DNA from: an uncultured Hungatella sp.
GTDB taxonomy: Bacteria; Bacillota; Clostridia; Lachnospirales; Lachnospiraceae
Direction of reading: 5' to 3'
Length of the DNA: 64,000 bases
Assembly (NCBI GenBank): GCA_947066955.1
Contig: CAMTAF010000003.1
Span: 1 to 64,000, forward strand
The notes below the pieces were generated by a model that saw only the letters and a list, made by a program, of their open reading frames with translations, ran no database searches and was not told where the DNA came from. Shown piece by piece: positions 17,293-31,164 of the stretch. Both the position numbers and the translations under genes were made by a program. How positions within the stretch are numbered: position 1 is the stretch's first letter; each line of letters opens with the position of its first letter.

Positions 17293-18174
17293 ATGCATAG
17301 ATTTCTGCGAACTGTGGGATTTAGCACATACAAGAAAAAGCACCAGATAGACCAATTGATGAAAAGCCTGGCCGATCACGCCAGCCCGGAACAGATCCGG
17401 AAGATCCAGTTAGACGAGGAAACCAACCTCTGTGAAGTAAAGGCCGAGATGGCGCCGGGGATGGGAGTAGCGGTCTATGGAGAGATGGATGATACAGGAG
17501 AGATCAGACCAGAATATTATGTCCCTTACCTCATAAGCCAGAACCCTTCTTCCAACGCAGAGTGTTCTATCCAGCGCCACACAGACAGGGAAACCTATGC
17601 CGGCCTTTTGGATGAATACAGGGTGGGGATTTCCCTGATCTATTATCTGGAAAACGCTATGGAATACAGGGAGAAAAGGATGGCAAAGGAATCTACAGAG
17701 GTGGAGTGTGTCAATCTGTCAGGATTATCTGTGAAAGGAAAAATACTCCTCCCTATTGAGAAGACTGCCAGACAGAAGGAGATGGACAGGGCCGCCTCAA
17801 AAGAGAGGAACAATCTCCTGGAAGCAGCGAAAAACGGGAATGAGGATGCCATAGAGACCTTGACGATCGAGGACATCGACTTATACTCCCAGATATCCAG
17901 ACGGGTCATGAAGGAGGATATCTATTCTATTATTGATTCCTGTTTTATGCCCTGCGGCATTGAGTGCGACCAGTACTCGGTGATCGGAACTATCCAGCAG
18001 CTGGAACTTGTGAAGAACCGCCTGACAGACGAGGAAGTCTATAAGATGAGCTTAGAATGCAATGACATGACATTCCAGGTGGCGATCAATAAGCAGGATC
18101 TCATAGGAGAGCCTTTGGTGGGGAGAAGGTTTAAGGGACAGATCTGGATGATGGGGACGGCGAGGTTTGAGTAA
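17293..18174 (+). CDS. DUF3881-like protein
   Basis: 293 residues. It begins MHRFLRTVGFSTYKKK, which I recall as the opening of DUF3881, a family largely confined to Lachnospiraceae. It is soluble with no signal sequence; a repeated-looking central part (EAAKNGNEDAIETLTIEDIDLYSQI) and the C-terminus VGRRFKGQIWMMGTARFE are conserved-type features. The function is unknown. RBS GAAGGTG precedes the ATG. It is the last host gene before the tRNA-Arg integration site. Confidence 0.75.
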   Translation: MHRFLRTVGFSTYKKKHQIDQLMKSLADHASPEQIRKIQLDEETNLCEVKAEMAPGMGVAVYGEMDDTGEIRPEYYVPYLISQNPSSNAECSIQRHTDRETYAGLLDEYRVGISLIYYLENAMEYREKRMAKESTEVECVNLSGLSVKGKILLPIEKTARQKEMDRAASKERNNLLEAAKNGNEDAIETLTIEDIDLYSQISRRVMKEDIYSIIDSCFMPCGIECDQYSVIGTIQQLELVKNRLTDEEVYKMSLECNDMTFQVAINKQDLIGEPLVGRRFKGQIWMMGTARFE

Positions 18175-18268
18175 AAAGATGAAAATCTGGTCTTGACGAA
18201 ACGGGAAAATCTGATATAATATGAGTGTTACAGGTTTGAAAAGTGGAACCTGAAAGTTTATTGTGTGT

Positions 18269-18308
18269 GTTTCCGTAGCTCAGTTGGATAGAGCGACCGC
18301 CTCCTAAG
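18269..18308 (+). tRNA. 5' half of host tRNA-Arg(CCU), split by integration
   Basis: GTTTCCG acceptor strand, D stem GCTC/GAGC with GGA-containing loop, and ACCGC anticodon stem, ending in the anticodon loop CTCCTAA (anticodon CCU) plus G. The sequence then departs into element DNA. The matching 3' half is about 12.8 kb away at 31123-31164; joined, they give a canonical 74-nt cloverleaf with ACCGC/GCGGT and GTTTCCG/CGGGAAC stems. As it stands this copy cannot make a tRNA. Confidence 0.9.
18301..18308. other. Left attachment core (attL) CTCCTAAG
   Basis: Eight-base core in the tRNA anticodon loop, repeated at 27133-27140 and 31123-31130. The three copies delimit two tandem integrated elements. 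Confidence 0.85.
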
Positions 18309-18362
18309 TTTTAGTTTAGTTCGTTACTTTCTGCTAACGAAAGAGGCACAAAAGCAGAATTA

Positions 18363-18434
18363 GTTCCCTTAGTTAAATGGATATAACAGGAGCCTCCTAA
18401 GCCCCAGTTGTGAGTTCGATTCTCGCAGGGAACG
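18363..18434 (+). tRNA. Complete tRNA-Arg(CCU) carried by element 1
   Basis: GTTCCCT/AGGGAAC acceptor stem (perfect 7 bp), GTTA/TAAC D stem with GG in the loop, CTCCTAA anticodon loop with CCU, and GTGAG/CTCGC T stem around TTCGATT. The anticodon stem GGAGC/GCCCC has one A-C mismatch. No CCA is encoded. Its sequence is clearly different from the host tRNA-Arg(CCU) that the element interrupts 55 bases upstream, so it is cargo rather than a duplication. It likely decodes AGG, a common codon here, and may replace the broken host gene. Confidence 0.88.
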
Positions 18435-18440
18435 CTGAAA

Positions 18441-18483
18441 AAGGTTGTAAATTCAAGGATTCTTGGACTTACAGCCTTTTTTC
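18441..18483 (+). terminator. Terminator after the element tRNA-Arg
   Basis: AAGGTTGTAA (18441-18450) with TTACAGCCTT (18469-18478, one G-U) then a T tract. It lies seven bases after the tRNA and indicates a transcription unit with a defined end. Confidence 0.8.
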
Positions 18484-18628
18484 ATTTCTGTTCTTTTATA
18501 AATATGTGGAAATAGATTTTAGAATCTGTCCGGTTACTGCTAACAAAAGATAAACGATTAAAAAATTGCTGTTTTCTCATTCTGCTAACAGAAATCGTGA
18601 AATCTGCTAACAGGACACTTTTTAAGAG

Positions 18629-20020
18629 TTATGTTTCAACGGCAGCAGTACCACCGCTTAACAGGTTCTTCATCACCGCTATCAGTTCGGGAGACTTTTG
18701 TAGCTGCTCTAACAATGCCTTAATATCAGTCTCGGAATTAGTGTTCTCTGTCGGCTTAGCCTTTTTCAAATCAGATACAGAATAAAACTCCTGTTCAAAG
18801 ACTTTAGCATTCTCTTTTCGGTTCTCGTCCAGAACATGGGCATAAACCCTTGTCACCATGTCTGCCGTTGCATGTCCGGTGTCACCCTGTACTGACTTGA
18901 TATCACCTTTTGAGAGCATCAGTTTATAGGTGGTAGAGGAATGACGCAGGCTGTGGAAAACCACATTCGGCAGAGCGGCTTTCTCTTTCAGCTTTTTAAA
19001 GGATTCCTCTAAAAGCCTGTTCTCACATGGATACCCATTGTCTAAGGCAACTACAAGGTCGAAATCATGGTATTCACTTCCTAAGAACGCCTTTGCTTTC
19101 TCTTGTTGTTCTCCCCATTTTCTCAGTATATTGGCAACAGTGACAGGCAACCATACACGCCTTACTGAACTTTTTGTTTTCGGTGCCTTTAAAACCCTTC
19201 TCGTAGTAGATTCTGCCTTTAGTGGCTGAAATACATGGTATACATCTTTATTGTCAAGCGTATTGAGAGCTTTTAAAGAAACCCGTTCCAATTCCCTGTC
19301 TATCTCTATATAGGCATTATCATTTGCAATATCTTTATCGGAGATATGGACACGCTCCCACTGTAACCCTAGAATCTCTCCCACCCTCAAAGAACAGGCA
19401 AAAGCTAAGTGTATGGCTACATACAGTCTTTCGTCCTCGCATTCATCAAGGGCTTTTCGGATTGTATCAGTATCCCAGATAGCTCTCTTTTCATATTCCG
19501 TTTTGGGCGGTGTAGCACCGTCCATAGGGTTCTTGCCTATGATATCCCATTTGACCGCCTGTTTGAAAGCACAGTTGAGAAGTTTGCATATCTTACCTAT
19601 TGTTTTATCTGTGACATATTTTGTTCTTGCCTTATGGGTTTTTGTTGACACCGCAGGCGTGGTCTTTAGCGTCTGGATATACTTGTCTATCATACGGGAA
19701 TTAATTTTCTGTATTTTAACACTCCCGATAAAAGGATTGATATAATTGTCAATCAGGCTTGTATTGCTGTCATAGACAGATAACCCCCATTTCTTCTGTG
19801 CGTATATATCTACAAATTCTTTCAGAAATTCTTCCAGTGTTTCATCTTTGGGAGCGACAAAGGTATTATTTATCTGCTGGTTCTCAACTTCTGCCTTTCT
19901 TGCTTTTGCTGTTTTATGGTCTGAAAAGGATTCCCATTTCTGCTTGGTCTTTCCGTTTTCATCAACATATCGGTATACTACGGAATAACTGCCATTCTCT
20001 CTTTTTACGATTGTTGCCAT
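18629..20020 (-). CDS. int: Tyrosine-type site-specific integrase of element 1
   Basis: 463 residues. The N-terminal arm-binding-type domain (MATIVKRENGSYSVVYRYVD) is followed by a SAM-like core-binding domain (about 60-165) and the catalytic domain. Catalytic residues are visible: Arg212 in SLRVGEILGLQW, His356/Arg359 in HSLRHSS, His383 in TGHATADM and the nucleophile Tyr393 in RVYAHVLDE. The gene ends about 320 bases from attL and reads towards it, with the tRNA and terminator between. RBS GGAGG precedes the ATG, and the Xis-like gene lies two bases upstream, so they are co-transcribed. Element 2 holds a related but broken copy. Confidence 0.96.
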   Translation of the reverse strand: MATIVKRENGSYSVVYRYVDENGKTKQKWESFSDHKTAKARKAEVENQQINNTFVAPKDETLEEFLKEFVDIYAQKKWGLSVYDSNTSLIDNYINPFIGSVKIQKINSRMIDKYIQTLKTTPAVSTKTHKARTKYVTDKTIGKICKLLNCAFKQAVKWDIIGKNPMDGATPPKTEYEKRAIWDTDTIRKALDECEDERLYVAIHLAFACSLRVGEILGLQWERVHISDKDIANDNAYIEIDRELERVSLKALNTLDNKDVYHVFQPLKAESTTRRVLKAPKTKSSVRRVWLPVTVANILRKWGEQQEKAKAFLGSEYHDFDLVVALDNGYPCENRLLEESFKKLKEKAALPNVVFHSLRHSSTTYKLMLSKGDIKSVQGDTGHATADMVTRVYAHVLDENRKENAKVFEQEFYSVSDLKKAKPTENTNSETDIKALLEQLQKSPELIAVMKNLLSGGTAAVET

Positions 20021-20022
20021 GA

Positions 20023-20397
20023 TTAAAACCCTCCGTTCTTCTGTACTGGATTATTGAGCCACCTGTAAAAATCTTCTTTGGAAATCCTTATGGAATTTCC
20101 CACACGGACTACCCGAAAAGGAGCATTTTTGATTAGTGCATATGCGGCGGTTCTTGAAATCTGCAAAATGTTCTGTATGTCTTCCACATGATAGACTTTC
20201 ACTGTATCATCATTAACAGTTGATGGTATGGTAAGTTGAGTAAGTTTATTTTTCTTCTGTTCTTTTAGTTGCTCTAATACTTTTCTCGTATTTTTCATAG
20301 AAAATAATCCGAGTTCCTCCAAGACATCTGCTGAAAGTAAAGTCAATATATCTGCGGTGTCCTTTTGTAAAAATTTAAAAGTATCTGACGTACTCAT
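20023..20397 (-). CDS. Excisionase-like helix-turn-helix protein
   Basis: 124 residues. The C-terminal half (VYHVEDIQNILQISRTAAYALIKN, then FRVVRVGNSIRISKEDFYRWL) is a MerR-like winged HTH of the excisionase/DNA-binding family found next to integrases. The N-terminal 60 residues are helical and unassigned. It ends two bases before the integrase start, so the two are coupled. By family it would bend DNA at the att arms and bias recombination towards excision. GGAGGG precedes the ATG. Confidence 0.85.
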   Translation of the reverse strand: MSTSDTFKFLQKDTADILTLLSADVLEELGLFSMKNTRKVLEQLKEQKKNKLTQLTIPSTVNDDTVKVYHVEDIQNILQISRTAAYALIKNAPFRVVRVGNSIRISKEDFYRWLNNPVQKNGGF

Positions 20398-20431
20398 ATA
20401 AAACCCTCCTAGTCAAAATCTCATGGAAATA

Positions 20432-20647
20432 TCAATAAAACGGTAAACAACATTCTTCATTTTCTTCTAAGGTTGTCTTACTGGAATCATTGGCAAGGAT
20501 TAAAGCCTGTCCGTGCTGAATAAGCATTAACCCCACCTTATTAAGTGCTTTTGGTATACAATCATCTAAAGAAACCTCAAACTCTATTTTGACTTTCACG
20601 CAAGATGAATCTTCTTTTGTTCCCTCAAATTCTTTTTTGATATTCAT
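20432..20647 (-). CDS. Small element protein, unknown
   Basis: 71 residues, acidic, with four cysteines (SSCVKVKIEFEV, LDDCIPKAL, ECCLPFY). An AAGGAG site lies ahead of the ATG. It sits in the same minus-strand series as the integrase and serine recombinase. No family is recognised and no signal or membrane segment is seen. Confidence 0.55.
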   Translation of the reverse strand: MNIKKEFEGTKEDSSCVKVKIEFEVSLDDCIPKALNKVGLMLIQHGQALILANDSSKTTLEENEECCLPFY

Positions 20648-20686
20648 AATGGCTCTCCTTTTTTAAACAAATCTCTCATTGTATCT

Positions 20687-21313
20687 TTATGGTGCCTCTG
20701 CTTCTGTAAGTTCCTTTACAAACGCATAATAAGTATTGGGTTTTAACCCTAACTCTCTCATTGCCTGCCTGTTTGTGATTTCTCTCTTTAAAACTCTGTG
20801 ATAAGCTTCATCAAATCTCTCCGGCTTCGGAATTTTTGCTCTGCCAAACTTTATTCCTTTTGCCTTTGCGGATTCAATGCCCTCTCTCTGTCTCCTCCTT
20901 ATTTCCTCCCTTTCCCGTTCAGCAACATATGATAGAATTTCGAAAGTCAGTTTTGCTATAAAGCGTTTGTCTAAAGTTTTTTCTTCCTGTGCCGTACTTA
21001 GTAGAGGATAATTAATCACTCTTATATCACACTTTCTTTCTTCGGTGATATAATTCCACTCCTTTGCCATTTCTGAATAGTTGCGGCCTAACCTATCGAG
21101 GTCAAGGATAACAACCTCGTCTCCCTCTTGCAGAGATTTAACCATGCTCTGATACGCTGGACGGGAAAAGTCCTTTCCCGACTGCTTGTCAATAAAAATA
21201 TCTCTCTCCATTACGCCCTCAAGCAACAGGGCATCTCTCTGCCGTGCTTCATTTTGCGTCTTGCTTGAAACTCTGATATAGCCGAATCTACGATTCTCTG
21301 TCTGCTCTTTCAT
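20687..21313 (-). CDS. Serine recombinase (resolvase/invertase family)
   Basis: 208 residues from the ATG at 21313, eight bases behind AAGGAG; an upstream GTG at 21322 abuts the ribosome site and is unlikely. The catalytic domain shows RFGYIRVSSKTQNEARQRDAL with the nucleophilic serine (first Ser of RVSS), then DLDRLGRNY and the E-helix EREREEIRRRQREG. The C-terminal HTH is REITNRQAMRELGLKPNTYY. The size fits resolvases/invertases, not the large integrases. It could resolve element multimers or invert DNA, but no obvious inversion site pair was seen. Confidence 0.9.
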   Translation of the reverse strand: MKEQTENRRFGYIRVSSKTQNEARQRDALLLEGVMERDIFIDKQSGKDFSRPAYQSMVKSLQEGDEVVILDLDRLGRNYSEMAKEWNYITEERKCDIRVINYPLLSTAQEEKTLDKRFIAKLTFEILSYVAEREREEIRRRQREGIESAKAKGIKFGRAKIPKPERFDEAYHRVLKREITNRQAMRELGLKPNTYYAFVKELTEAEAP

Positions 21314-21415
21314 GTCAGTCACTCCTTTTCTTTATTTTGACGAAACGATTGAACCACAGAGCATTTGAAAAGTAAAGACGCGATTTAAAATATTTATAAA
21401 TATTGTATAATTCAT

Positions 21416-21456
21416 TTTTCAAACAGGGGAGATTCTTTGTCTCCCTTGTTTGAAAA
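21416..21456. other. Stem-loop in the 21314-21595 intergenic region
   Basis: TTTTCAAACAGGGGAG (21416-21431) pairs with CTCCCTTGTTTGAAAA (21441-21456), a near-perfect 16-bp stem. It may terminate the minus-strand genes from 22455. The rest of the 282-base gap is AT-rich and shows no gene. Confidence 0.65.
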
Positions 21457-21595
21457 TGTGGATAATCATTCGTAAATGGATAATTGAAAAAGTATACTTA
21501 TTCAAACTCTTTTGTATTAGGTGAAAGGTACTCTGTTATTTTGGAAATTATGACAAAATGACAATACCCCATAATTATTTTCATAATTACTAATA

Positions 21596-22000
21596 TTAAA
21601 AGTATCTCGGATTTTGGGAGCATTGAGCAATCTCCTCTCCTGTAATATGTCTTGTAATTGTTCTCTCACAGCAGTTAAAGTAAGCTGATAATTCGCTTAC
21701 AGAAGATATACCATGATTCTGAATCACTTTTTTAATTTCATTTTTGGTAACTTTGGGAGGTCTTCCGCCATTTGCTCCCCCTTTTTTGGCTTTTGTATAT
21801 CTGCGGTCATATTTATCAATAAGCGGAATAACTTGTACAAGAAATACTTCTGCTATAGAATTGATTGGTGGATATGCCCCCATAGTTCCGTACAAAATTA
21901 TTGAAGTTGCGAAGTCTTTAAACTGTTCCTCGGATAAAGCCTTGTAAGCAGGCTTTATATAATCATTGTAAACAAAGAAGCCTTTATTCACTCGTTCCAT
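21596..22000 (-). CDS. DUF6291-like element protein with C-terminal HTH
   Basis: 134 residues. The N-terminal part (GFFVYNDYIKPAYKALSEEQFKDF, AEVFLVQVIPLIDKYDRRY) resembles the DUF6291-type helical domain common in phage and element replication modules. A KKGGANGGRPPK hinge leads to a C-terminal HTH (SSVSELSAYFNCCERTITRHI). The arrangement suggests a DNA-binding replication or regulatory accessory protein. It lies 14 bases downstream of a second protein of similar N-terminal type. Confidence 0.65.
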   Translation of the reverse strand: MERVNKGFFVYNDYIKPAYKALSEEQFKDFATSIILYGTMGAYPPINSIAEVFLVQVIPLIDKYDRRYTKAKKGGANGGRPPKVTKNEIKKVIQNHGISSVSELSAYFNCCERTITRHITGEEIAQCSQNPRYF

Positions 22001-22014
22001 TTGCAGTACACCCC

Positions 22015-22455
22015 TTAAAGTTTAACTCCGTTGGTTGCGTTGATTATCTGCTCAACGGAATTTGCATGGATTCTGTCTTCGGGGTGATTATAATAATTAA
22101 GATTATGCTTGTCTTTGGCGCAGTCCTCCAAATACTTTGCATACTGATTATCAAGGACAGGGGTAATATTCTCCATAACCCCTCTGATAATTGGATTGTT
22201 GGTTATGTGTGTTCCTGCTATTCCGTAGGCGATTAAATCTTCGAGGAATAAAAGAGCAAGGTCAGCGTCTGCTTTTTTAAGCAGTACATATGATTTTAAA
22301 TGGCTTGGGAAAAATACGAACCCTCTGCCACGGTCTGGTATCTCTACTTTACGAATATCTTCCTCTTTAGGTTCACTTTCCAAAATATCACTAAGCATGG
22401 TATCTATTAAAGGTAGTTCCGTTAAACTGTTAAATTCTGTGATTTCATCAAACAT
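22015..22455 (-). CDS. DUF6291-like element protein
   Basis: 146 residues. The central segment (FFPSHLKSYVLLKKADADLALL, LIAYGIAGTHITNN, IIRGVMENITPVLDNQYAKY) parallels the N-terminal domain of the neighbouring 134-residue protein, so the two may be diverged duplicates or partners. There is no HTH at its C-terminus. AAGGAG lies ahead of the ATG. The upstream region holds long inverted repeats, which may regulate it or be an element replication site. Confidence 0.6.
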   Translation of the reverse strand: MFDEITEFNSLTELPLIDTMLSDILESEPKEEDIRKVEIPDRGRGFVFFPSHLKSYVLLKKADADLALLFLEDLIAYGIAGTHITNNPIIRGVMENITPVLDNQYAKYLEDCAKDKHNLNYYNHPEDRIHANSVEQIINATNGVKL

Positions 22456-22506
22456 CTGATTGTCTCCTTATTCTAATATCTGTCGATATGTTATTTTAGA
22501 AGCTTT

Positions 22507-22769
22507 GATTTCTTCACTTCATGTATTCAGATAAAAAGGTGAATCCTCTATCTGAATAAGCATGAAATGAAGAAATCTCTATATCTGTCTTTGATGATAG
22601 ATATAGTCTGAATCTTCCTGCTTCAATAAGGTGGGATTCAGTGGAAACTCTCTCTTCACTTCTTTCTCTTGAACTCAAATGATTTTTAATAATTCCTTAT
22701 ATTATCATTCACTTAAAGTTTATTGTCTATTTTTTTATCGGTGAATAAAAAATAGTCAAAAACTTTAAG
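22507..22769. other. Structured non-coding region with two long inverted repeats
   Basis: Arm 22507-22533 pairs with 22549-22577 (core TTCAGATA with TATCTGAA and GATTTCTTCA with the matching TGAAGAAATC). TATATCT/AGATATA and GAATC/GGATTC form smaller hairpins behind it. A second inverted repeat pairs about 22712-22737 with 22745-22769 (CTTAAAGTTT with AAACTTTAAG, CTATTTTTT with AAAAAATAG). No supported ORF lies in 22456-22929. It could be a leader RNA of the minus-strand gene or an element replication origin. Confidence 0.6.
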
Positions 22770-22929
22770 TTTGTTGAGATTATGAGTGGTTATAAGAGTA
22801 AGAGTGGTTTCAATAGTCGTTTTACTGATATTGTTGGTAATATATTCGCCTTTAAGTCAGTTGCAAAGTTAACCGCCACCGTCTCTAAGGCTAATAAACA
22901 TTATAACTTTATAATGCTTATTAACATTA

Positions 22930-23340
22930 TTATGAATCAGAAACAGCTATATACAGTATGTCTATAATAGAAGTTCTGAAAACCATATGTCTTGGCTTTT
23001 GTATATGAAAGTGCCGTTTCTTTAATTTTTTATAATAATGATTAAACAGCTCTGTTTCTTCTTCGTTCATTGATTCAGGATTTTGTATTTGAACTTTTGC
23101 TACTTGGTAGGTTCTACCATTAGATATACGTATTTTTACTAAGAAGAATTTAGGTTCATTCTTTAATTCTTTTTTTGTTTCGTGAATAGAAAAATCTCCA
23201 TTTTCTTCATCAAACAAAGCGCAAGACCAAGAAGTAATACCTTTAAAGCAATCGTTAACTTCGTCAAAGTAATCATAAAAATCAATTTCTCCGTTTTCAT
23301 ATTTTGTTTTGAGTTCCGCTTTCTTTTCCTCGTTAATCAT
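22930..23340 (-). CDS. Hypothetical element protein
   Basis: 136 residues, charged, starting MINEEKKAELKTKYENGEID behind GAAAGGA. It has an alpha-beta appearance (FFLVKIRISNGRTYQVAKVQI) and a basic C-terminus (YYKKLKKRHFHIQKPRH). No domain is recognised and there is no signal peptide. Codon use is AT-rich like the rest of the element. Confidence 0.55.
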   Translation of the reverse strand: MINEEKKAELKTKYENGEIDFYDYFDEVNDCFKGITSWSCALFDEENGDFSIHETKKELKNEPKFFLVKIRISNGRTYQVAKVQIQNPESMNEEETELFNHYYKKLKKRHFHIQKPRHMVFRTSIIDILYIAVSDS

Positions 23341-23885
23341 TTTCTTTATCCTTTCTTTTTAATGTTGATAATTAAATTAAACCGGCTTGTCTGATTTTAT
23401 ATTATTCACTTAATGTTCTTTTGATGTCATAAAATCTAGAAATTTTTGGATAAATTATATGAATACCATTATAGATTCTTTTTTATGCTTTATTTGTCAT
23501 AATATGTCACCTCTTTTAAAAATATTTCAATTTTAACACTTTCAAATAAATATTAATCTACCTCTGACCCATAAAAATCACCCCCAATCTAAAGGTTTTA
23601 TGCCACATTGTTATATACGATAAAAAGGGAAGTTGTCTCAGACCAAAACCAATGATTAACCAACTTTCTCTCTTTTGCTCAAAAATAAGATAAATTTAGA
23701 GTGGTATCATTGGCTATATTGCACATTAGATATTAACTTTTGAACACGTTTCCACCCACAGGGAACTGTTTTAAGGCTAAAAGACATAGAATAATCCTTT
23801 GCATTTTCTCCAATGTAACAACACCCCTTGAAATGTATTCAAGAGGTGTTCATCAGTACTACCTTATAAGATTATCTGTCTATGA
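23341..23885. other. AT-rich gene-free region
   Basis: 545 bases with no supported ORF. The only clear structure is the inverted repeat 23820-23832 / 23838-23850 (AACACCCCTTGAA with TTCAAGAGGTGTT, one mismatch), placed to terminate the minus-strand gene that ends at 23886. The remainder shows short AT-rich runs without repeats I could define. Confidence 0.6.
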
Positions 23886-24509
23886 TTATTCCAACTGCTC
23901 TTTTAATAAATCTATGAATACTTCCATTCTTGAATATTCACTTTGGGGATAAACATCTATAAGCGTGGCATTATCGCCAGTTATAAGAACCACAGCCGAA
24001 CTTTCATCACTTTTTCCTTTTGAATAAATAAATTTGACAACATAAATCTGCCCCTCGTCATTACCTGTTTCTTTTGTGACAGATTTTATTTCGCAATCAG
24101 AGAATGTTGCTGACACAATATCTTCTGCCATTTTCTCACCTTTGCTTTTTTCACTGAACATAGAACAAAGTATTATTATTGCTATTAGCAGAACAGCAAG
24201 TATCTTTACATTACGGTATTTGTTCTTTGCAAAGAAATTAGATGTGTCCTTGTCTTTTGTTACCTGTTTTATATCATCTGTAAACCCTTTAGTCATTTCT
24301 TTTGCTTTCTCTGCATATTTTTGTGCCTGCTCACCTGTTGCTTCATTAGCACTGTTACCAATCGCTTTCGCTGAATCCATGACTGCTACGGCTGTGTTTT
24401 TTAACGCTTCTTTCGCACTCCCTATATCAGAAGATGAAAGACTGCCCCCACAGTAAGGACAGAATTTGCTGTCGTTTTTAATCTGGTTACCACAATGTGA
24501 ACAATACAT
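23886..24509 (-). CDS. Zinc-ribbon membrane protein
   Basis: 207 residues. The N-terminal double-CxxC zinc ribbon (MYCSHCGNQIKNDSKFCPYCG) is followed by an Ala/Lys-rich helical linker, one transmembrane segment (ILAVLLIAIIILCSMF) and a C-terminal beta-like domain (QIYVVKFIYSKG, SAVVLITGDNATLID). The ribbon would be cytoplasmic and the C-terminal domain extracytoplasmic. The neighbouring gene has the same ribbon-TM-outer-domain plan, so the two are probably functionally linked. The function is unknown. Confidence 0.75.
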   Translation of the reverse strand: MYCSHCGNQIKNDSKFCPYCGGSLSSSDIGSAKEALKNTAVAVMDSAKAIGNSANEATGEQAQKYAEKAKEMTKGFTDDIKQVTKDKDTSNFFAKNKYRNVKILAVLLIAIIILCSMFSEKSKGEKMAEDIVSATFSDCEIKSVTKETGNDEGQIYVVKFIYSKGKSDESSAVVLITGDNATLIDVYPQSEYSRMEVFIDLLKEQLE

Positions 24510-24527
24510 TTCATTTTCTCCTTTCGC

Positions 24528-26054
24528 CTATTCGACACTTACCAGTTCAGAATTATCAAACCAATTACAATATTGTAAATCTGTTGTCGCAAATATATTT
24601 AATACTCTTTTCTCGTCTCCTCTATCCCATACTTCCATTATGTAATATGCATTTTCAAGTTCCCACGTCAGATAATATCTGGAAGTATCATTTATGTCTC
24701 GGCATATACATGGATTTACACTTTGTATTTCTTCCGGTAAATCTATAAATTCAATGCTATTGTATTGTGGAATTGCTGGATTCGCAGAAATAAGCTGCTT
24801 TTCAAAAACTATTATTCCGTCTTTAGTAATTCCATAAACTAAATAATCTACAACGGTTAAATATACATAAAGGTCTTGTGTTGCATCTGGATCAACGCCA
24901 GACATTCCAACATATCTCTCAAAATCACCAGAAGGTACTTTTTTGAGTGTCCCAAAGTTTATTGTACCGAATACATGAGAATCCTTGCCTATAATATCTG
25001 CCGTAAGCGGTACATATGGGATTAGTTCCCCCATTTCTGATAAAATACCACTGTCATAAGCTGTCAATGGTTGTTTAAAGCCAGAATCTGTATCATTCTC
25101 TGATTTCAAGCTTTCATCATCAGATGAAGAACCGCCAAATTGATATGTACCCTGTATTACATTATTCAGTTGAATGTATTGAGCCGATACGGAAAGAGTA
25201 TTTTCATCAATCACTGATATGTCGATTGTCTGATTGCGCATAAAATCATCATCACAGGTAATTATATCGGCTTTATACGTGTCATTACCATTACTATAAA
25301 ATTCACCCTCTCCATATAAAACTGGTACAGTCTTTTCAGTTACACTTATTATAAATGTGCTATCAGAGTAAATGAAAAGCATATACTCTATATCATTACT
25401 TGTGTATCCATAATACCCCTCTTTTAGCAGAGTATCCCCAGTAACATTTGGGCTTACCATATTGTCTGCATCATACCCATTTGTATTGTCCTCTAATGCG
25501 TCAGCTTCGGACATATACTGGTACTCTACACAAAGAAATAGAAGTGAATTATCATCAGAAGAAATGGTTATGCTGTTGCCAGTCGGTATAATTGAAAATT
25601 TCTTATCAATAAAACTTCCCGATTCATCATCTGATATACTCCCGACATAATTACCATTGTCATTATCAATACTTCCTGAAAGAAGAAGAAAATTACCGGA
25701 TTCATCATAGCCAGTCATATTAAAGGTATATTGACCACTAACATCTTTTGCAATCGTGATTCTGTCAAGTTCATTAGCATAAGTTCCTGTATTTAATATA
25801 TTTTCATCTGAAATATCTTCATGTTGTGCAGGCTCCTGTACAGCTGTTTCAATATTTGAACTCTTGCTCGTTTGGTTCTTTGTTATAACAAATATACCAA
25901 CTGCAACACCAAGAATCAGAACACCTATTAACCCTATAATTATAGCTGTTTTCTTTTTTGGTGGGCTTGAAGCTGTATTTTTTACTTTTTTCCCACAGTT
26001 CGGACAAAACTGCGCATCATTCGACAATTTTGCTCCACATTCTTTACAAAACAT
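24528..26054 (-). CDS. Zinc-ribbon membrane protein with large extracytoplasmic domain
   Basis: 508 residues from the ATG at 26054, six bases behind AGGAGGT; the frame extends to 26090 without a ribosome site. Zinc ribbon FCKECGAKLSNDAQFCPNCG, then a Lys-rich stop-transfer region, a transmembrane helix (AIIIGLIGVLILGVAVGIFV), and about 430 residues of beta-rich, Asp/Ser/Asn-rich sequence with recurring GTY and G-Y motifs (NTGTYANELDRI, KEGYYGYTSNDIEYML, IQGTYQFGG) that suggest repeated lipocalin-like or beta-sandwich units. It may sense or display something at the surface. It is 18 bases upstream of the second zinc-ribbon gene in the same orientation. Confidence 0.75.
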   Translation of the reverse strand: MFCKECGAKLSNDAQFCPNCGKKVKNTASSPPKKKTAIIIGLIGVLILGVAVGIFVITKNQTSKSSNIETAVQEPAQHEDISDENILNTGTYANELDRITIAKDVSGQYTFNMTGYDESGNFLLLSGSIDNDNGNYVGSISDDESGSFIDKKFSIIPTGNSITISSDDNSLLFLCVEYQYMSEADALEDNTNGYDADNMVSPNVTGDTLLKEGYYGYTSNDIEYMLFIYSDSTFIISVTEKTVPVLYGEGEFYSNGNDTYKADIITCDDDFMRNQTIDISVIDENTLSVSAQYIQLNNVIQGTYQFGGSSSDDESLKSENDTDSGFKQPLTAYDSGILSEMGELIPYVPLTADIIGKDSHVFGTINFGTLKKVPSGDFERYVGMSGVDPDATQDLYVYLTVVDYLVYGITKDGIIVFEKQLISANPAIPQYNSIEFIDLPEEIQSVNPCICRDINDTSRYYLTWELENAYYIMEVWDRGDEKRVLNIFATTDLQYCNWFDNSELVSVE

Positions 26055-26227
26055 GATTTTACCTCCTATAAACGGTATTTTATAAGTCATTTTTTCTTAA
26101 TGCTATACAAGCCATAGATATATTATAGTGCAACAGGCGTAAATATTCAACGCTATAAGCGCATATATTTTGCGCCCAATGCACATTTTCACAAGTAGAA
26201 TACACAATAAGCACAGGAGGATTTCAC

Positions 26228-26527
26228 ATGATTGAAGGGTTGCCGGACAGGCTGAAAGAAGCACGTATGAGAATAAACCTCTCACGGAAGGAAGTAGCAG
26301 AGCATTTTGACATATCTTCGTCAATCATTGCCGGATATGAAACAGGCTACCGCACACCGTCAACAGAGGTTTTAATCAAGCTGTCGGGGCTGTATCAATG
26401 CTCTCTTGATTATCTGGTGGGAAAGACAAAGGAAAATCAGATTGTTATTGACATAGACGGGCTTAATGAGATTCAAATATCAGCTATTCGCATAATGGTT
26501 GAAGCCATGAAGCAGAAGCATGAATAA
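26228..26527 (+). CDS. XRE-family HTH regulator of element 1
   Basis: 99 residues. The Cro/CI-type HTH is at residues 6-60 (RLKEARMRINLSRKEVAEHF, SSIIAGYETGYRTPS, LSGLYQCSLDYLVGK). A short C-terminal helix follows. AGGAGG sits at a good distance from the ATG. It is divergent from the zinc-ribbon genes, and the 26055-26227 gap between them is the likely operator region. By family it would repress element genes until induced. Confidence 0.88.
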   Translation: MIEGLPDRLKEARMRINLSRKEVAEHFDISSSIIAGYETGYRTPSTEVLIKLSGLYQCSLDYLVGKTKENQIVIDIDGLNEIQISAIRIMVEAMKQKHE

Positions 26528-26531
26528 CTGT

Positions 26532-26771
26532 TCATGCTTTCGTTTGGGTGTCCTCTGCTCCATGAATCTCCTTTAACGCCTTTTCTGTAAATTCATGGAG
26601 TTCATTCACGGAATATAAAAAGCATATGATACAGTCTAAAACCTGCTGTTCTGTATCTTCCCCCATTAGCCCCAAATGCACCGTATTTATGAGGTTAGAT
26701 AGCTCCCTAAGCCGATTTGAGATAGTAGTCATGTTTTCTGTTGCGGTAGTTAATCGTTCTTCTGTGTTCAT
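26532..26771 (-). CDS. Small hypothetical element protein
   Basis: 79 residues from the ATG at 26771, nine bases behind GGAG; a GTG at 26780 directly abuts the ribosome site. It is helical throughout (TATENMTTISNRLRELSNLI, CFLYSVNELHEFTEKALKEI) with two cysteines and no recognised family. It is convergent with the XRE gene (five bases apart). Confidence 0.5.
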   Translation of the reverse strand: MNTEERLTTATENMTTISNRLRELSNLINTVHLGLMGEDTEQQVLDCIICFLYSVNELHEFTEKALKEIHGAEDTQTKA

Positions 26772-27132
26772 CTTTGACACTCCTTCTTTCGAGGAACGAT
26801 TATACCATTCTTTTTGAGATTGTAATACTCTTTTACAAGGAAATATTTAAAAACACCATTTCGTGAAATGTAAGGATTTCAATGTGTTGAAGTAAGTTTC
26901 TGATTCAAAAACTGATATCAGTTCATAATAATTCATAATTGGTAACTTATAAAGCAAAGCATAATTTCTCTTGCTAACAAAATTGCTAACAGGACAGTAT
27001 GATATTGTGTGATATAAGACAAGAATAGTTGATATTTTGTGATAGTGGTATCGTTAAAGAACCTTGTATTCTCTATAACTGTGTGGTATTCTGTATCACA
27101 GAACAGGAGCGGACAGAAGATGTGTTTTAGTA

Positions 27133-27174
27133 CTCCTAAGCGATAGGTCGGACGTTCAAGTCGTCTCGGGGACG
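27133..27174 (+). tRNA. Middle att core followed by a diverged tRNA-Arg 3' half
   Basis: CTCCTAAG then a 34-nt tRNA-Arg(CCU) 3' half with a GACG/CGTC T stem and a CGGGGAC acceptor strand. It differs from the host 3' half at several stem positions. In a tandem arrangement this is the attP arm of element 2, which would restore the tRNA when element 2 alone is integrated (GTTTCCG/CGGGGAC still pairs, with G-U pairs). With element 1 inserted to its left it is cut off from the 5' half. Confidence 0.8.
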
Positions 27175-27179
27175 TTGGA

Positions 27180-27220
27180 AAGCATTGAAAACATTGGATT
27201 TTCAATGCTTTTCTTTTTTT
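27180..27220 (+). terminator. Terminator after the element-borne tRNA half
   Basis: AAGCATTGAAAA (27180-27191) with TTTTCAATGCTT (27199-27210) and a T-rich tail. Like the host tRNA it provides a tRNA terminator, which supports the view that element 2 carries a functional tRNA end. Confidence 0.85.
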
Positions 27221-27242
27221 TGTCTCAAGAGAAAACCAAAAG

Positions 27243-28384
27243 TCAGAGGACTCGGTTTTTTGGATATTTGTTATCACCCATGTTGCTAACAGGGAATCGA
27301 ACACAAAACTGCACTTTCAGAGCCGTTGCTAATAATCTGCTAATAGCATTTCCTTTCAGTGCCTTTGTCAGCATGGCAATCAACTCCGGTGATTGTTCCA
27401 ATGCTGAAATTAAATTTGTCAGGTCTGGGTTTCCATCTTCAGTGCTGGAGTGGCGCAGGGAATGGAATACAACATAAGGCAGCCCTGCCTTCTCCCGGAG
27501 CTTCGAGAACTCTTTTTCCATGATGCGGTTTTCCACAGGTCTTCCATTCGGAAGCGTCAGCACAAGGTTGGTATGGGTATTCGACATGACGGAAGGAAAA
27601 ATAAACAGGATGTCCTTGTCGTCCAAATGCTGTCGGGCCTCCCTTGATACACGGGCAAGCTCCTGTTCAATCCAAAGGTAGGAATCATCATTAGCGATGT
27701 CCTCGTCTGAAATATGTACCTTATCCCATGTCAGCCCGCAGATTTCACCATAGCGCATGGAATAGGCAAAAGCCAGATTCATTGCGACATAGAGTTTCAT
27801 ATCATCGCACTCGTCCAGTGCTTTACTGATCATACCTGCCGTCCATATGTCACGTTTCTTGTAGTTGGTCTTGGGCTTGTTTGCATGGGGGAACGGGTTC
27901 TTGCGATAATCTCCCATTTTACTGCCTGCTCGAAGGCACATCTGAGTACCTTATGGATACTGTGTATAGTGCCGGGTGTAAGATACTCACTCTGCGGCCT
28001 TTTGTTTTTCTTCGCCACAGGCTTTGTCTTCTGCAGCCGGACATAAAACTCATCCACAAACTTCGGGCTGATGTCCTGAACTGCCATATCACTGATTGCG
28101 GGATTAATGTAATTTGCAATCAGGGCACAGTTGGACTCATATGTTGATAAAGCCCAGTGCGACGTGCCGTAGATTTTTGCAAAGTCCCGCAGGAAGTCTT
28201 TTACAGTCAGCTCCTGTGGAGGGATAAAGGTCCCGTTGCCCTGCTGGTTCTCGATCTCAGCCTTCCTGCATTTTGCCTCAGCATGATCCTGACAGGTTTC
28301 CCATTTCTGGTGCTTCTCCCCTTTCTCATCCGTATAATAGTAAACCACTGAGTATTTGCTTTTCCTCTTGATAATAGATGCCAT
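27243..28384 (-). pseudogene. Broken tyrosine integrase of element 2
   Basis: Homologous to the intact element 1 integrase. The N-terminal part (MASIIKRKSKYSVVYYYTDE to EQAVKWEII) reads in one frame from 28384, and the catalytic part (NPFPHANKPKTNYKKRDIW onward) reads in another, with the shift near 27900-27915. There are two further in-frame deletions. One removes the segment before LPNGRPVENR. The other joins HSLRHSST directly to the C-terminal tail, losing the GHxxxDM segment and the catalytic tyrosine. The frame then runs on without a proper end. At least three lesions make it inactive. Confidence 0.9.
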
Positions 28385-28402
28385 CTGTTTCTCCTTCTAC
28401 CC

Positions 28403-28573
28403 TTACAACAGGTTGTTAAGCCAGTTGCCAAAAGATACCTTGGAGATCCTGATTGTCCGTCCAAGCCGGACCACTTTAAAATCCGGCTGCCTGCAAAGCT
28501 CATATGCCTTGCTTTTGCTGATCTGCAGAATATCTGCAATCTCAAGAACGGAATAGATTTTCTTATCTTGTGC
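28403..28573 (-). pseudogene. Truncated excisionase-like gene of element 2
   Basis: About 55 residues matching the HTH half of the element 1 Xis-like protein (KIYSVLEIADILQISKSKAYEL, FKVVRLGRTIRISKVSFGNWL). The N-terminal part is missing: upstream the frame runs into sequence that is coding on the opposite strand. An ORF to 28753 exists only as this fusion. It is located 18 bases before the integrase start, as in element 1. Confidence 0.7.
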
Positions 28574-28757
28574 AGGGACACATTCTGCACCACAGAAGGG
28601 CCGGAGCGCTACTTCAACCGCTCCATGGCAGACGGGACCTGGTATAGGGCCTCGCCTACAGGGAACTACTGTGAGAATGACTGCACGGTCAGGGAGGACG
28701 TCATCTTTGAGGTCATCGCCGGAGGCGAGGTCCACTGCCTGTATGACGGGCATGCCC
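28568..28757 (+). pseudogene. C-terminal fragment of an unknown plus-strand gene
   Basis: An open plus-strand frame reading PERYFNRSMADGTWYRASP, YCENDCTVREDVIFEVIAGG and CLYDG, with protein-like composition and three cysteines. It has no start codon with a ribosome site and abuts truncated Xis on its left and an intron-like sequence on its right. I read it as the 5' exon side of an intron-interrupted gene brought in by rearrangement. The family is not recognised. Confidence 0.45.
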
Positions 28758-29069
28758 GTGTTCTGTGGTGAAAGTCCACATAGGCGTAGCTACCAACGAA
28801 CTTTATAGCGACTCTCAAGGTTTGTATCGTGAGGTGCAGGCGAGAAGAAGAGATAGCAAAACCCGTAGCCCTACGGACAGAAACCTGATATTAAGGCGTA
28901 TATGGCGGGTGAGCTGGCAGGTGACAGCAAAGCCCAAAAGGTAGCCGTAACCCATATGCGTAAATTGGGAGGGTAGACGGGGAAAGAACACGGACATATC
29001 CCGCGAGGTCTCACAGGCGGTCACATTTGCCGTAGCAACAACGAACTGTGAGAAGTCAGCAGAAGCCAT
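28758..29069 (+). other. Group II intron 5' fragment (domain I region)
   Basis: Begins GTGTTCTGTGGTGAAAGTCC and contains phrases typical of group II intron domain I (GAGCTGGCAGGTGACAGC, AAAGCCCAAAAGGTAGCC, GGGAGGGTAGACGGGGAAAG) and the GAGAAGTCAGCAGAAGCC stretch that usually precedes the intron ORF start. It stops there: no reverse transcriptase follows, and the sequence switches to the kinase gene on the other strand. It is a 5' remnant that cannot splice. Confidence 0.7.
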
Positions 29070-29588
29070 AGTGACGATTTCCGCAGCTATTTCGTCCAGA
29101 TCCTTATTTCCAGTGTTGATTCTTACAGCATCAGAATATTCGGTTCCAAGGTACTCTATATGCTGTGAAATTTTAGGTGTCTGCTGTGCCTGCGCGTTCC
29201 TGTCCCGGATTGGGTCGTTTTCTATACGGGATATGATAGTTTCCTTTGTCGCTTCAAGAATGATGTGGTGCATGGGTACATCTTTCTTTTCAAAATAATC
29301 CAGGAGTTCTTTTTCACAGAGTTTCGTCACAAGCGACAAAGATACGATTGGTGTTTTGCCAGCGCCATACATCTTTTCCTCGATTGTTTTTCGGAGTATG
29401 TTGAGGAAAAATCTATTATAATATGGCTCGAACCCAGAGAGGGCTTCGTTAAAGTGGTCATGAATGAAATCTGCCCAATATAGGTCTGATTCTATATATT
29501 CGGCATCTTTTTCTGCCAGGAGTCCAGCCAGCTTTTGGGCAACATGGGACTTCCCTGCACCGACTGTTCCGTTTATCCAGACAATCAT
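28815..29588 (-). CDS. P-loop kinase/TmrB-like ATPase, C-terminus replaced by intron sequence
   Basis: It begins MIVWINGTVGAGKSHVAQKL, a P-loop like that of TmrB or small nucleoside/adenylylate-type kinases, and continues with IESDLYWADFI, PIVSLSLVTKL and IILEATKETIISRIENDP (lid-like). Homology appears to end near EIAAEIVT (29070). The remaining 85 or so residues are the antisense of the group II intron fragment, so the 257-residue ORF is chimeric. Activity is uncertain, since the lost C-terminal helix may be dispensable. There is no strong ribosome site ahead of the ATG. The substrate is unknown. Confidence 0.6.
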   Translation of the reverse strand: MIVWINGTVGAGKSHVAQKLAGLLAEKDAEYIESDLYWADFIHDHFNEALSGFEPYYNRFFLNILRKTIEEKMYGAGKTPIVSLSLVTKLCEKELLDYFEKKDVPMHHIILEATKETIISRIENDPIRDRNAQAQQTPKISQHIEYLGTEYSDAVRINTGNKDLDEIAAEIVTMASADFSQFVVATANVTACETSRDMSVFFPRLPSQFTHMGYGYLLGFAVTCQLTRHIRLNIRFLSVGLRVLLSLLLACTSRYKP

Positions 29589-29654
29589 AATTTGTACCCT
29601 GCCTTATTTAGTTTAGCCTGAAGGCTGAATGAATGGGATTTCTGCGCTGTTTGG

Positions 29655-30239
29655 CTAGTTGCTGCCTTGCGTTGGTTCGCGTTCCATGTCCCCCAGCTCC
29701 TCCATGTTCGGTTCTGAATAAAATGGATCGGGAGAAGCCTCGATGTCAGGCTGGATGGCATCGCTGCCGTTCAGCTCATCAAGCATGATCTTTTCCAGGC
29801 GCGTGATGTCAGGGAATACCACTTTCATGCCCCTTGCATGGAGCTGGCGCAGCCGTTTCATGTTCGTGCTTACCTCGCTGTGGATGGAGTGCTTTACCGG
29901 GACCGGGTTATTGTTTCTGGTATGTATGTGGTCCAGATAGCGTTCAGTGACAGGGAACATATTCTGCAGGAGAAAGGCGGCGCTTTTCCCATCAAACTCT
30001 CCAAGGACAATGGTGAGGCACCTGCCATATTTCCTGACCTGTTTGTCGTGGATTGACCTGAATTTGTCTATCCGGCTGCTTAACGGGACCATCCAGAGCA
30101 GAGAGGTCTTGTCATCTTTTAGGCAGTAGAAAGTAGGGCGGTATGTACCGTTCTCTTTGTTCTGCATGAGCATATCGTCGTTTACTTTTTCAAAATATTC
30201 ATCTTTGATATGATATACATAGCCTTCTTTGTAAAGCAT
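29655..30239 (-). CDS. Type III toxin-antitoxin toxin, ToxN/CptN-like endoribonuclease
   Basis: 194 residues. The N-terminal core (VYHIKDEYFEKVND, LLWMVPLSSRIDKFRSIHDKQ, LTIVLGEFDGKSAAFLLQNMFPVTERYL) has the layout of ToxN/AbiQ/CptN toxins, which are compact RNases that cut at A-rich sites. Basic and polar residues in SSRIDKFRSIHDK fit the catalytic region. The C-terminal 30 residues are acidic. The gene is preceded by two tandem 46-nt repeats, a terminator and a consensus promoter, which is the diagnostic type III arrangement. Subfamily assignment (CptIN versus ToxIN/TenpIN) is uncertain. It may stabilise the element or abort phage infection. Confidence 0.8.
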   Translation of the reverse strand: MLYKEGYVYHIKDEYFEKVNDDMLMQNKENGTYRPTFYCLKDDKTSLLWMVPLSSRIDKFRSIHDKQVRKYGRCLTIVLGEFDGKSAAFLLQNMFPVTERYLDHIHTRNNNPVPVKHSIHSEVSTNMKRLRQLHARGMKVVFPDITRLEKIMLDELNGSDAIQPDIEASPDPFYSEPNMEELGDMEREPTQGSN

Positions 30240-30258
30240 GTGTCACCGCCTATAAAAT

Positions 30259-30282
30259 CAGCCCTACCTTACGATAGGGCTG
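30259..30282 (-). terminator. Attenuator terminator between antitoxin repeats and toxin
   Basis: Read on the minus strand: CAGCCCTA, a short loop, a complementary TAGGGCTG arm and ATTTTAT. In type III systems such a terminator lets most transcripts stop after the antitoxin RNA, with read-through making toxin. It lies 20 bases before the toxin start. Confidence 0.85.
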
Positions 30283-30292
30283 GGAATTTTCG

Positions 30293-30384
30293 GGCCGGAC
30301 ATTTATTAGACGCCTCCGGTGGGCGAGCCATATTTTCGAGCCGGTCATTTATAGGCCGCCAACGGTAAGCGGGCAATATTTTCG
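30293..30384 (-). ncRNA. Type III antitoxin RNA: two 46-nt tandem repeats
   Basis: On the minus strand, unit 1 (30384-30339) and unit 2 (30338-30293) both start CGAAAATAT and end ATAAATG-CCGG-, with differences concentrated in paired-looking GC segments (GCCCGC/GGCGGCC versus CTCGCC/GGAGGCG). A partial third CGAAAAT start (30292) leads into the terminator. The toxin would cut the A-rich junctions to release pseudoknot monomers that hold it inactive. Unit length and layout match known CptI/ToxI-type antitoxins. Confidence 0.82.
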
Positions 30385-30408
30385 ATAGATTTCTCTATCT
30401 TTATTATC

Positions 30409-30437
30409 ATTATACGAAAGAAGCGGAAATATGTCAA
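30409..30437 (-). promoter_or_regulatory. Consensus promoter of the type III TA locus
   Basis: On the minus strand: TTGACA (30437-30432), exactly 17 bases, TATAAT (30414-30409). Both hexamers match the sigma-A consensus fully. Transcription would begin near 30402, about 18 bases before the first repeat, after a small GATAGA...TCTATC hairpin. Confidence 0.92.
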
Positions 30438-30462
30438 TTTGTTCATCAATATTTTATTTCCT

Positions 30463-30984
30463 CTACGCCGAGCAGTAGGGGACACCGGGACGGATCTTAT
30501 GGCCTTTCCCAATCCGGAGCAGGTGTACGCTGCCGTCCTTATCGGTAAGGACGATATCATAGCTGTTCCTGAAAGGCTTCAGCCGGACATCCGTGCAGGT
30601 GCCCTCCAGCACGAAGTAGGACTTTCTTTTGAACCGAAGGGCGAGCAGGTTATTCCTGCCGAGCCGGGTATAGGTGATATAGTTCTGCTTCTGTAGATAG
30701 TCGAGAATGGACAGAGCCTGGTGCTGGAAGCGTGTGCGGAACCACTCTGCCAGCTCCGAGGTTCTGCAGATCCACTCGCCTGGTCCTATCAAGTAGGAGA
30801 TACCCTCTATCCGGCGGTAGGAGGAGCGAAAGTTGGCGTAGGAGCAGAGTGTCATGTAATAAAAAAGATAGGAGCTTCCGTTGGTACGGATGTCCCTATC
30901 TTCCATAAGGCTGCGGAGGAACTCACGGTAGATGCGGCACCGTGGGTAGTCCACGATTTGTTTCACTTCTAATTGATAATCCAT
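30463..30984 (-). CDS. Winged-helix protein, probable element replication/regulatory protein
   Basis: 173 residues from the ATG at 30984, seven bases behind GAGGAG; the frame extends upstream to 31056 without a ribosome site. The central part (SYLFYYMTLCSYANFRSSYRR, GPGEWICRTSELAEWF, HQALSILDYLQKQNYITYTR, NNLLALRFK) reads as a winged helix, as in small replication or plasmid-copy proteins. It is next to the right att site and upstream of the TA locus. The role is inferred from fold and position. Confidence 0.6.
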   Translation of the reverse strand: MDYQLEVKQIVDYPRCRIYREFLRSLMEDRDIRTNGSSYLFYYMTLCSYANFRSSYRRIEGISYLIGPGEWICRTSELAEWFRTRFQHQALSILDYLQKQNYITYTRLGRNNLLALRFKRKSYFVLEGTCTDVRLKPFRNSYDIVLTDKDGSVHLLRIGKGHKIRPGVPYCSA

Positions 30985-31122
30985 AGCTGGTCTCCTCTGA
31001 AATATTTGTTTTATCTTGTACTGCAAATCCGGTTGTGTTATGATATAAAAGAACATTGAAAAAGCGTTGCGAGAGGGATGAGCGCTCTTGGCCTATAAAA
31101 TGAGTCTGCTAACAAAATTTAA

Positions 31123-31164
31123 CTCCTAAGCGGTAGGTCGGGTGTTCAAGTCACCTCGGGAACG
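31123..31164 (+). tRNA. Right att core and 3' half of host tRNA-Arg(CCU)
   Basis: CTCCTAAG followed by GCGGT (anticodon stem), variable AGGTC, a T arm with TTCAAGT loop, and CGGGAAC plus discriminator G. It completes the 5' half at 18269-18308. This is the original chromosomal 3' end, pushed away by two elements. Confidence 0.88.

Follow-up and report, generated by a model that had tools for sequence, protein, structure and literature searches.

A tRNA-Arg(CCU) gene carried by integrative elements of gut Clostridia that interrupt the host copy

The window analyzed here, a stretch of 64,000 nucleotides from an uncultured Hungatella sp. (Lachnospiraceae), contains a tyrosine-integrase element that appears to destroy the host tRNA-Arg(CCU) gene, to bring a complete substitute and to be itself open to later insertion; on the strength of sequence comparison, we assign this reading a probability of about 0.88. 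The integrase of the element (hereinafter element 1) would recombine within the anticodon loop of tRNA-Arg(CCU), at the 8-bp core CTCCTAAG, and, given that the attachment site of the element lacks a tRNA 3' end, insertion would destroy the host gene. The complete tRNA-Arg(CCU) located just inside the left end of element 1 would serve as the substitute. Because this gene has no promoter of its own in the window, the host tRNA promoter would read through the broken half, with RNase P freeing the substitute tRNA from the read-through transcript and a downstream hairpin presumably terminating that transcript. Given that every incoming element is able to split the tRNA of its predecessor, the working copy would be that of the newest element, and loss of an element without restoration of the tRNA should cost AGG decoding.

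Split host gene and tandem elements in the window

The host tRNA-Arg(CCU) gene is cut at the core in its anticodon loop (18301-18308), and the core is present four times in the window (at 18301, 18394, 27133 and 31123). The features are as follows, with pairing scores out of 12 referring to the acceptor and anticodon-stem positions.

18193-18220, plus strand: promoter-like site of the host tRNA, TTGACG-16-TATAAT, preceding the broken half (11/12 matches)
18269-18308, plus strand: host tRNA-Arg(CCU), 5' half, ending at the break in the anticodon loop (pairs 12/12 with the 3' half at 31123)
18301-18308, plus strand: core, left junction of element 1
18301-27140, no strand: element 1, core to core, 8.8 kb
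18309-18362, plus strand: leader of element 1, with no restoration of the host tRNA and no promoter-like site
18363-18434, plus strand: complete element-borne tRNA-Arg(CCU) (ARAGORN, 18363-18435; Rfam, 18363-18434)
18437-18482, plus strand: terminator-like hairpin and T run that follow the element tRNA (z -6.3)
18629-20020, minus strand: element 1 tyrosine integrase, oriented convergently with the tRNA (PF00589, E 3.2e-15)
20023-20397, minus strand: HTH_17 protein, probable excisionase by prediction (PF12728)
27133-27174, plus strand: 3' half of the element 2 tRNA, which element 1 has split (11/12 pairs with the remaining 5' half)
27141-31130, no strand: element 2, 4 kb, degenerate
27243-28384, minus strand: element 2 integrase, disrupted and spanning two overlapping frames
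28403-28753, minus strand: HTH_17 protein of element 2
31123-31164, plus strand: host tRNA-Arg(CCU), 3' half, lying 12.8 kb away from the 5' half

ARAGORN found no tRNA in 18151-18360, which implies that the host gene is not rebuilt at the left end, and detected no tRNA at the element junctions besides the element copy, i.e., the host tRNA is not reconstructed there. When the outer flanks are joined in silico, the product is recognized by ARAGORN as tRNA-Arg(CCU), and the joined site matches that of a relative from the same genus (G001) at 95.3% over 128 bp, spanning the junction. The tRNA site lies downstream of a DUF3881 gene (17293-18174 in the window), and this position is a recurrent insertion spot in the genus (loci L030-L045), with a single intact tRNA in seven relatives and broken halves in others.

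Past 27133, the order of parts seen in element 1 recurs: the 3' half of a tRNA is followed by an inverted repeat rich in T and then by an integrase and an HTH_17 gene, and the half at 27133 opens with the right core of element 1. Element 1 (18301-27140) thus sits within the tRNA of the older, degenerate element 2. The sequence-only reading of this DNA had recognized element 1 but overlooked this second, tandem one (27141-31130). The left side has a single 5' half to match the two 3' halves, since element 2 lacks both its 5' half and its leader; a lost intermediate must be assumed for these missing parts, with recombination between cores as a likely cause. A Pfam scan of 10 ORFs of element 1 recognized no virion gene. 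Element 1 also contains a long hairpin (22507-22577) that weakly resembles a microRNA family (34.9 bits, short of the gathering score) but is most likely just a hairpin, and element 2 contains a Group II intron D1-D4 domain (RF02001, 115.6 bits, 28823-28991) adjoining its HTH_17 gene.

The element-borne tRNA and its counterparts in other genomes

The tRNA-Arg(CCU) at 18363-18435 is the only tRNA identified by ARAGORN in the whole window; its Rfam match (18363-18434) scores 58 bits (E 1.7e-10), and it begins after a 54-nt gap from the left core (18301-18308). The hairpin that follows has a fold of -21.8 kcal/mol (z -6.3). The sequence-only reading had proposed that the host tRNA is not rebuilt at the left end, that a complete, diverged tRNA with the same anticodon and its own terminator lies just inside the element and, accordingly, that the strategy is whole-gene replacement instead of 3'-end mimicry. 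The first two of these propositions agree with the ARAGORN and Rfam results, the terminator holds as well, although a simple terminator scan did not list the hairpin at 18437-18482, and whole-gene replacement is well supported both in the window and in many relatives.

The layout pattern matched 46 of the 397 genomes of the family, with no reversed-control hits among the matches listed, and 10 of the 295 genomes at the order level (three of these, G000, G052 and G053, already matched at the family level), where the reversed control gave one match. Treating all pattern matches as confirmed arrangements was rejected: an arrangement could be parsed in 73 of the 91 sources, yielding 45 distinct ones, and the other 18 sources, which represent contig ends or parser misses, gave none. 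The tRNA is located 53-85 nt from the core in 44 of the 45 distinct arrangements, and 14 of the 45 include at least two broken halves. Among the 37 arrangements with at least 1400 nt of downstream sequence, 25 have the integrase family beside the tRNA, in all 25 cases convergent to it and 179-354 bp away. Among the remaining arrangements, some have a ParA-type ATPase in this position; of six proteins scanned from five loci of this kind, four are ParA-like, one each in four of the loci, near the tRNA end. In two genomes (G106 and G097), the integrase is found at the far end, adjoining a 3' half, which suggests that larger elements follow the same plan. Displaced 3' halves that show 12/12 pairing with a broken 5' half in their own genome number 16 in 12 genomes, the window pair included, whereas none was present in the stretches fetched for G050 and G102.

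A protein scan of viral contigs yielded no confirmed relative. In one IMG/VR sequence (L238, positions 3950-4120; IMGVR_UViG_2853978868_000001), the core follows non-tRNA sequence, and a complete tRNA-Arg(CCU) with an encoded CCA lies tens of nucleotides further on, with a ParA-like gene after the tRNA and a probable lysin gene before it (names assigned by eye); judging by its sequence, this stretch resembles the attP of a phage built on the same plan. One genome, G162, carries a second arrangement (C1:1583624-1632227; L172-L175) in which the full tRNA has only 5/7 acceptor pairs, a state that recombination between two tRNAs at the core could have produced.

The leaders that separate the core from the element tRNA do not complete the host half. 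The mean pairing, out of 17 positions, is 9.5 for the host half joined to the leader, 16.9 for the full tRNAs and 8.0 (sd 1.7) for random places, so that the host half and leader pair little better than random places do. The idea that the leaders are vestigial mimics of the 3' half was examined and rejected: a T-loop motif 12-18 nt past the core was found in 0 of the 27 leader clusters, and its occurrence at 11 nt in three clusters, noticed post hoc, leaves the decayed-mimic idea unsupported.

Searching the window leader (18309-18362) revealed no promoter-like site. Across the 45 arrangements, with 110 nt upstream tested, a near-consensus promoter precedes the outermost broken half in 29 (3% in shuffled sequences) and is lacking in 16; inside the leader, such a promoter occurs in 4 (2% in shuffled sequences). 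As judged from these sites, the substitute tRNA is probably read from the host promoter.

Copy number, AGG decoding and ownership of the tRNA

A pattern for the full tRNA detected one tRNA-Arg(CCU) in 29 of 33 genomes, two in three genomes and none in one. A looser pattern, applied to 15 genomes, added 3' halves and non-tRNA strings, the latter judged by their letters, with patterns that would miss unusual anticodon or T loops. Eight of these additional 3' halves were examined; ARAGORN recognized a tRNA in none of the eight, and all eight showed 12/12 pairing with a broken 5' half from the same genome. Each of the seven closed or nearly closed genomes (G060, G071, G215, G256, G295, G347 and G441) contains one intact tRNA-Arg(CCU) by these patterns and, in six of the seven, this sole copy adjoins a parsed broken half, G295 having no parsed arrangement. 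A second intact host tRNA-Arg(CCU), which would have spoken against reliance on the element copy, was sought in the assembly that includes the window (fragmentary, about 92% complete), and none was found by the patterns; the other matches in this assembly are two 3' halves and one non-tRNA string.

The tRNA-Arg(UCU), which may read AGG by wobble, was found by match letters in 18 of 19 genomes, the exception being the window's own fragmentary assembly, and ARAGORN confirmed it at 16 of the 17 loci given, the miss being in G000. Furthermore, in the window copy of the element tRNA, the third position of the anticodon stem is an A-C mismatch (4/5 paired), and the minimum-free-energy fold of this copy differs from the cloverleaf. 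Both the near-ubiquity of tRNA-Arg(UCU) and the mismatch would be compatible with the element tRNA being a functionless remnant, with AGG read by tRNA-Arg(UCU), but such a role appears improbable. Across 28 distinct full element tRNAs, 584 of the 588 stem pairs are kept, with many compensatory changes, even if this figure is biased upward because the parser pre-selected on pairing (at least 10/12 acceptor and anticodon pairs and at least 4/5 T-stem pairs). In addition, in the 17 host genes examined in the window, arginine is most often encoded by AGG (143 of 443 codons), and an intact CCU copy is present in 32 of the 33 genomes.

The sequence-only reading had proposed an addiction mechanism. 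Host dependence on the element tRNA is plausible, but addiction is unproven because tRNA-Arg(UCU) is usually present. Moreover, excision of element 1 would leave behind a hybrid that ARAGORN still calls tRNA-Arg(CCU), so that loss of the element need not deprive the cell of this tRNA.

Even less probable, in our estimate, is that the element tRNA mainly counters a host defense that cuts tRNA-Arg, or tunes codon supply, with repair being secondary. Phage tRNAs have been proposed to act against tRNA-cutting defense (PMC10865867). However, AGG is rarer in the genes of element 1 than in host genes (7.0 vs. 17.1 per 1000 codons), and the tRNAs identified by ARAGORN at integrase-anchored loci have, in every case, the anticodon of the gene that was cut.

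Several comparisons assign the substitute tRNA to the element. The leader and tRNA of element 1 are identical to those at another locus (L026) in 124 of 126 positions, while the flanks of the two loci show no relationship: immediately upstream, 23 of 100 bases agree, and blastn found no match in the compared flank. In Mantel tests on the 25 arrangements with a long integrase, integrase distances correlate with element tRNA distances (r 0.48, 0/5000 permutations) but not with those of the broken host half (r 0.02, 1827/5000 permutations); by this measure, the element tRNAs go with the integrase rather than with the broken half of the host gene. In G060 and G129, the elements have their left and right ends in common, but the host tRNAs that they broke differ. 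The two genes in the window have the same anticodon loop and orientation, and their starts are less than 100 bp apart, as could be expected of two neighboring host tRNA-Arg(CCU) genes of which the element broke one and left the other, but this is the least credible of the alternatives given the recurrence of the leader and tRNA in a different host background, the element tRNAs following the integrase, the shared ends in G060 and G129, the single intact tRNA at the site in seven genus relatives and the fact that no uninserted relative with a tandem tRNA pair was seen.

Serial reuse and relation to known systems

The fate of the substitute tRNA can be traced in two genomes that share an element. 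In G173, element C adjoins element B, the tRNA of which is intact, and in G071, the same element C is located inside the tRNA of B, the halves of which pair 12/12 across C; taken together, these loci indicate that element tRNAs come to serve as attachment sites. The 5' halves in G071 are in the order A, B and the 3' halves in the order B, a middle one, A; the middle 3' half (6765249) pairs only 11/12 with A and the last one pairs 12/12 with A. From this order, the array reads as a last-in, first-out nest. In this closed genome, about 183 kb of stacked elements lie between the outermost halves of one tRNA (C1:6695900-6878591). In the genus of the window, the resident tRNA and terminator (G001; L031, 2551-2680) closely match an element-borne tRNA and terminator from another genus (G307, L075), and this similarity of sequence would fit repeated takeover and domestication. 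It is a possible, albeit doubtful, extension that, in Lachnospirales and their neighbors, tRNA-Arg(CCU) is element-owned in general, such that every working copy is, or descends from, the tRNA brought by the most recent invader and earlier owners have left their remains stacked at the site.

The principle itself is already known; what is new are the non-phage elements of gut Clostridia, the placement of the tRNA near the core and the serial reuse. According to Guerrero-Bustamante and Hatfull (mBio, 2024; PMC10865867), tRNA-dependent lysogeny is established in mycobacteriophages, with experimental proof in phages of Actinobacteria; the tRNA of the phage Fionnbharth has its own promoter, and the authors speculate that a second plasmid may use a plasmid tRNA as attB. 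As in tRNA-dependent lysogeny, element 1 has a tyrosine integrase (PF00589), an attB within a tRNA gene and a short (8-bp) common core, and the host tRNA is not reconstructed. Unlike those phages, element 1 has no recognized virion gene among the 10 ORFs scanned against Pfam. Thus, element 1 works like tRNA-dependent lysogeny but is not filed as a member, since it does not qualify as a temperate phage. The present elements differ further in their gut Clostridia hosts, the near-core tRNA, the apparent reading from the host promoter and the natural reuse of the tRNA as attB.

Replacement has also been described for Lo5R7ANS-like prophages in tRNA-Leu(UAG) of Sinorhizobium meliloti (2 of 88 elements; PMC11476347), where the gene is disrupted centrally and a diverged prophage tRNA takes its place; the authors state that there is no evidence of such prophage tRNAs becoming new integration sites. 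The replacement plan is common to both systems and, of the two, reuse as an integration site is seen only here. The prophage Lj965 of Lactobacillus johnsonii, as cited in PMC10865867, similarly fails to rebuild the tRNA and codes for a cognate one. In canonical tRNA-site genomic islands (Islander; PMC4383910), attP holds a tRNA end that restores the gene; the elements described here share with such islands the tyrosine integrase, the anticodon-loop subsite and the displaced 3' fragment downstream but lack the gene-restoring tRNA end in attP. The literature searched yielded no description of this layout in Lachnospiraceae and none of element tRNAs nested in stacks.

The layout suggests why island finders that seek a reconstructed tRNA would set the boundaries of such elements in the wrong place. 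The findings extend a phage strategy that was described only recently beyond the phages of Actinobacteria, on a large scale, to non-phage elements of gut Clostridia. The G173 and G071 loci provide natural evidence that a replacement tRNA can become the next attachment site, as speculated in PMC10865867 and reported to be without evidence in PMC11476347. The supply of tRNA-Arg(CCU) would pass from one invader to the next, offering a testable case of a core translation gene that is handed between mobile elements.
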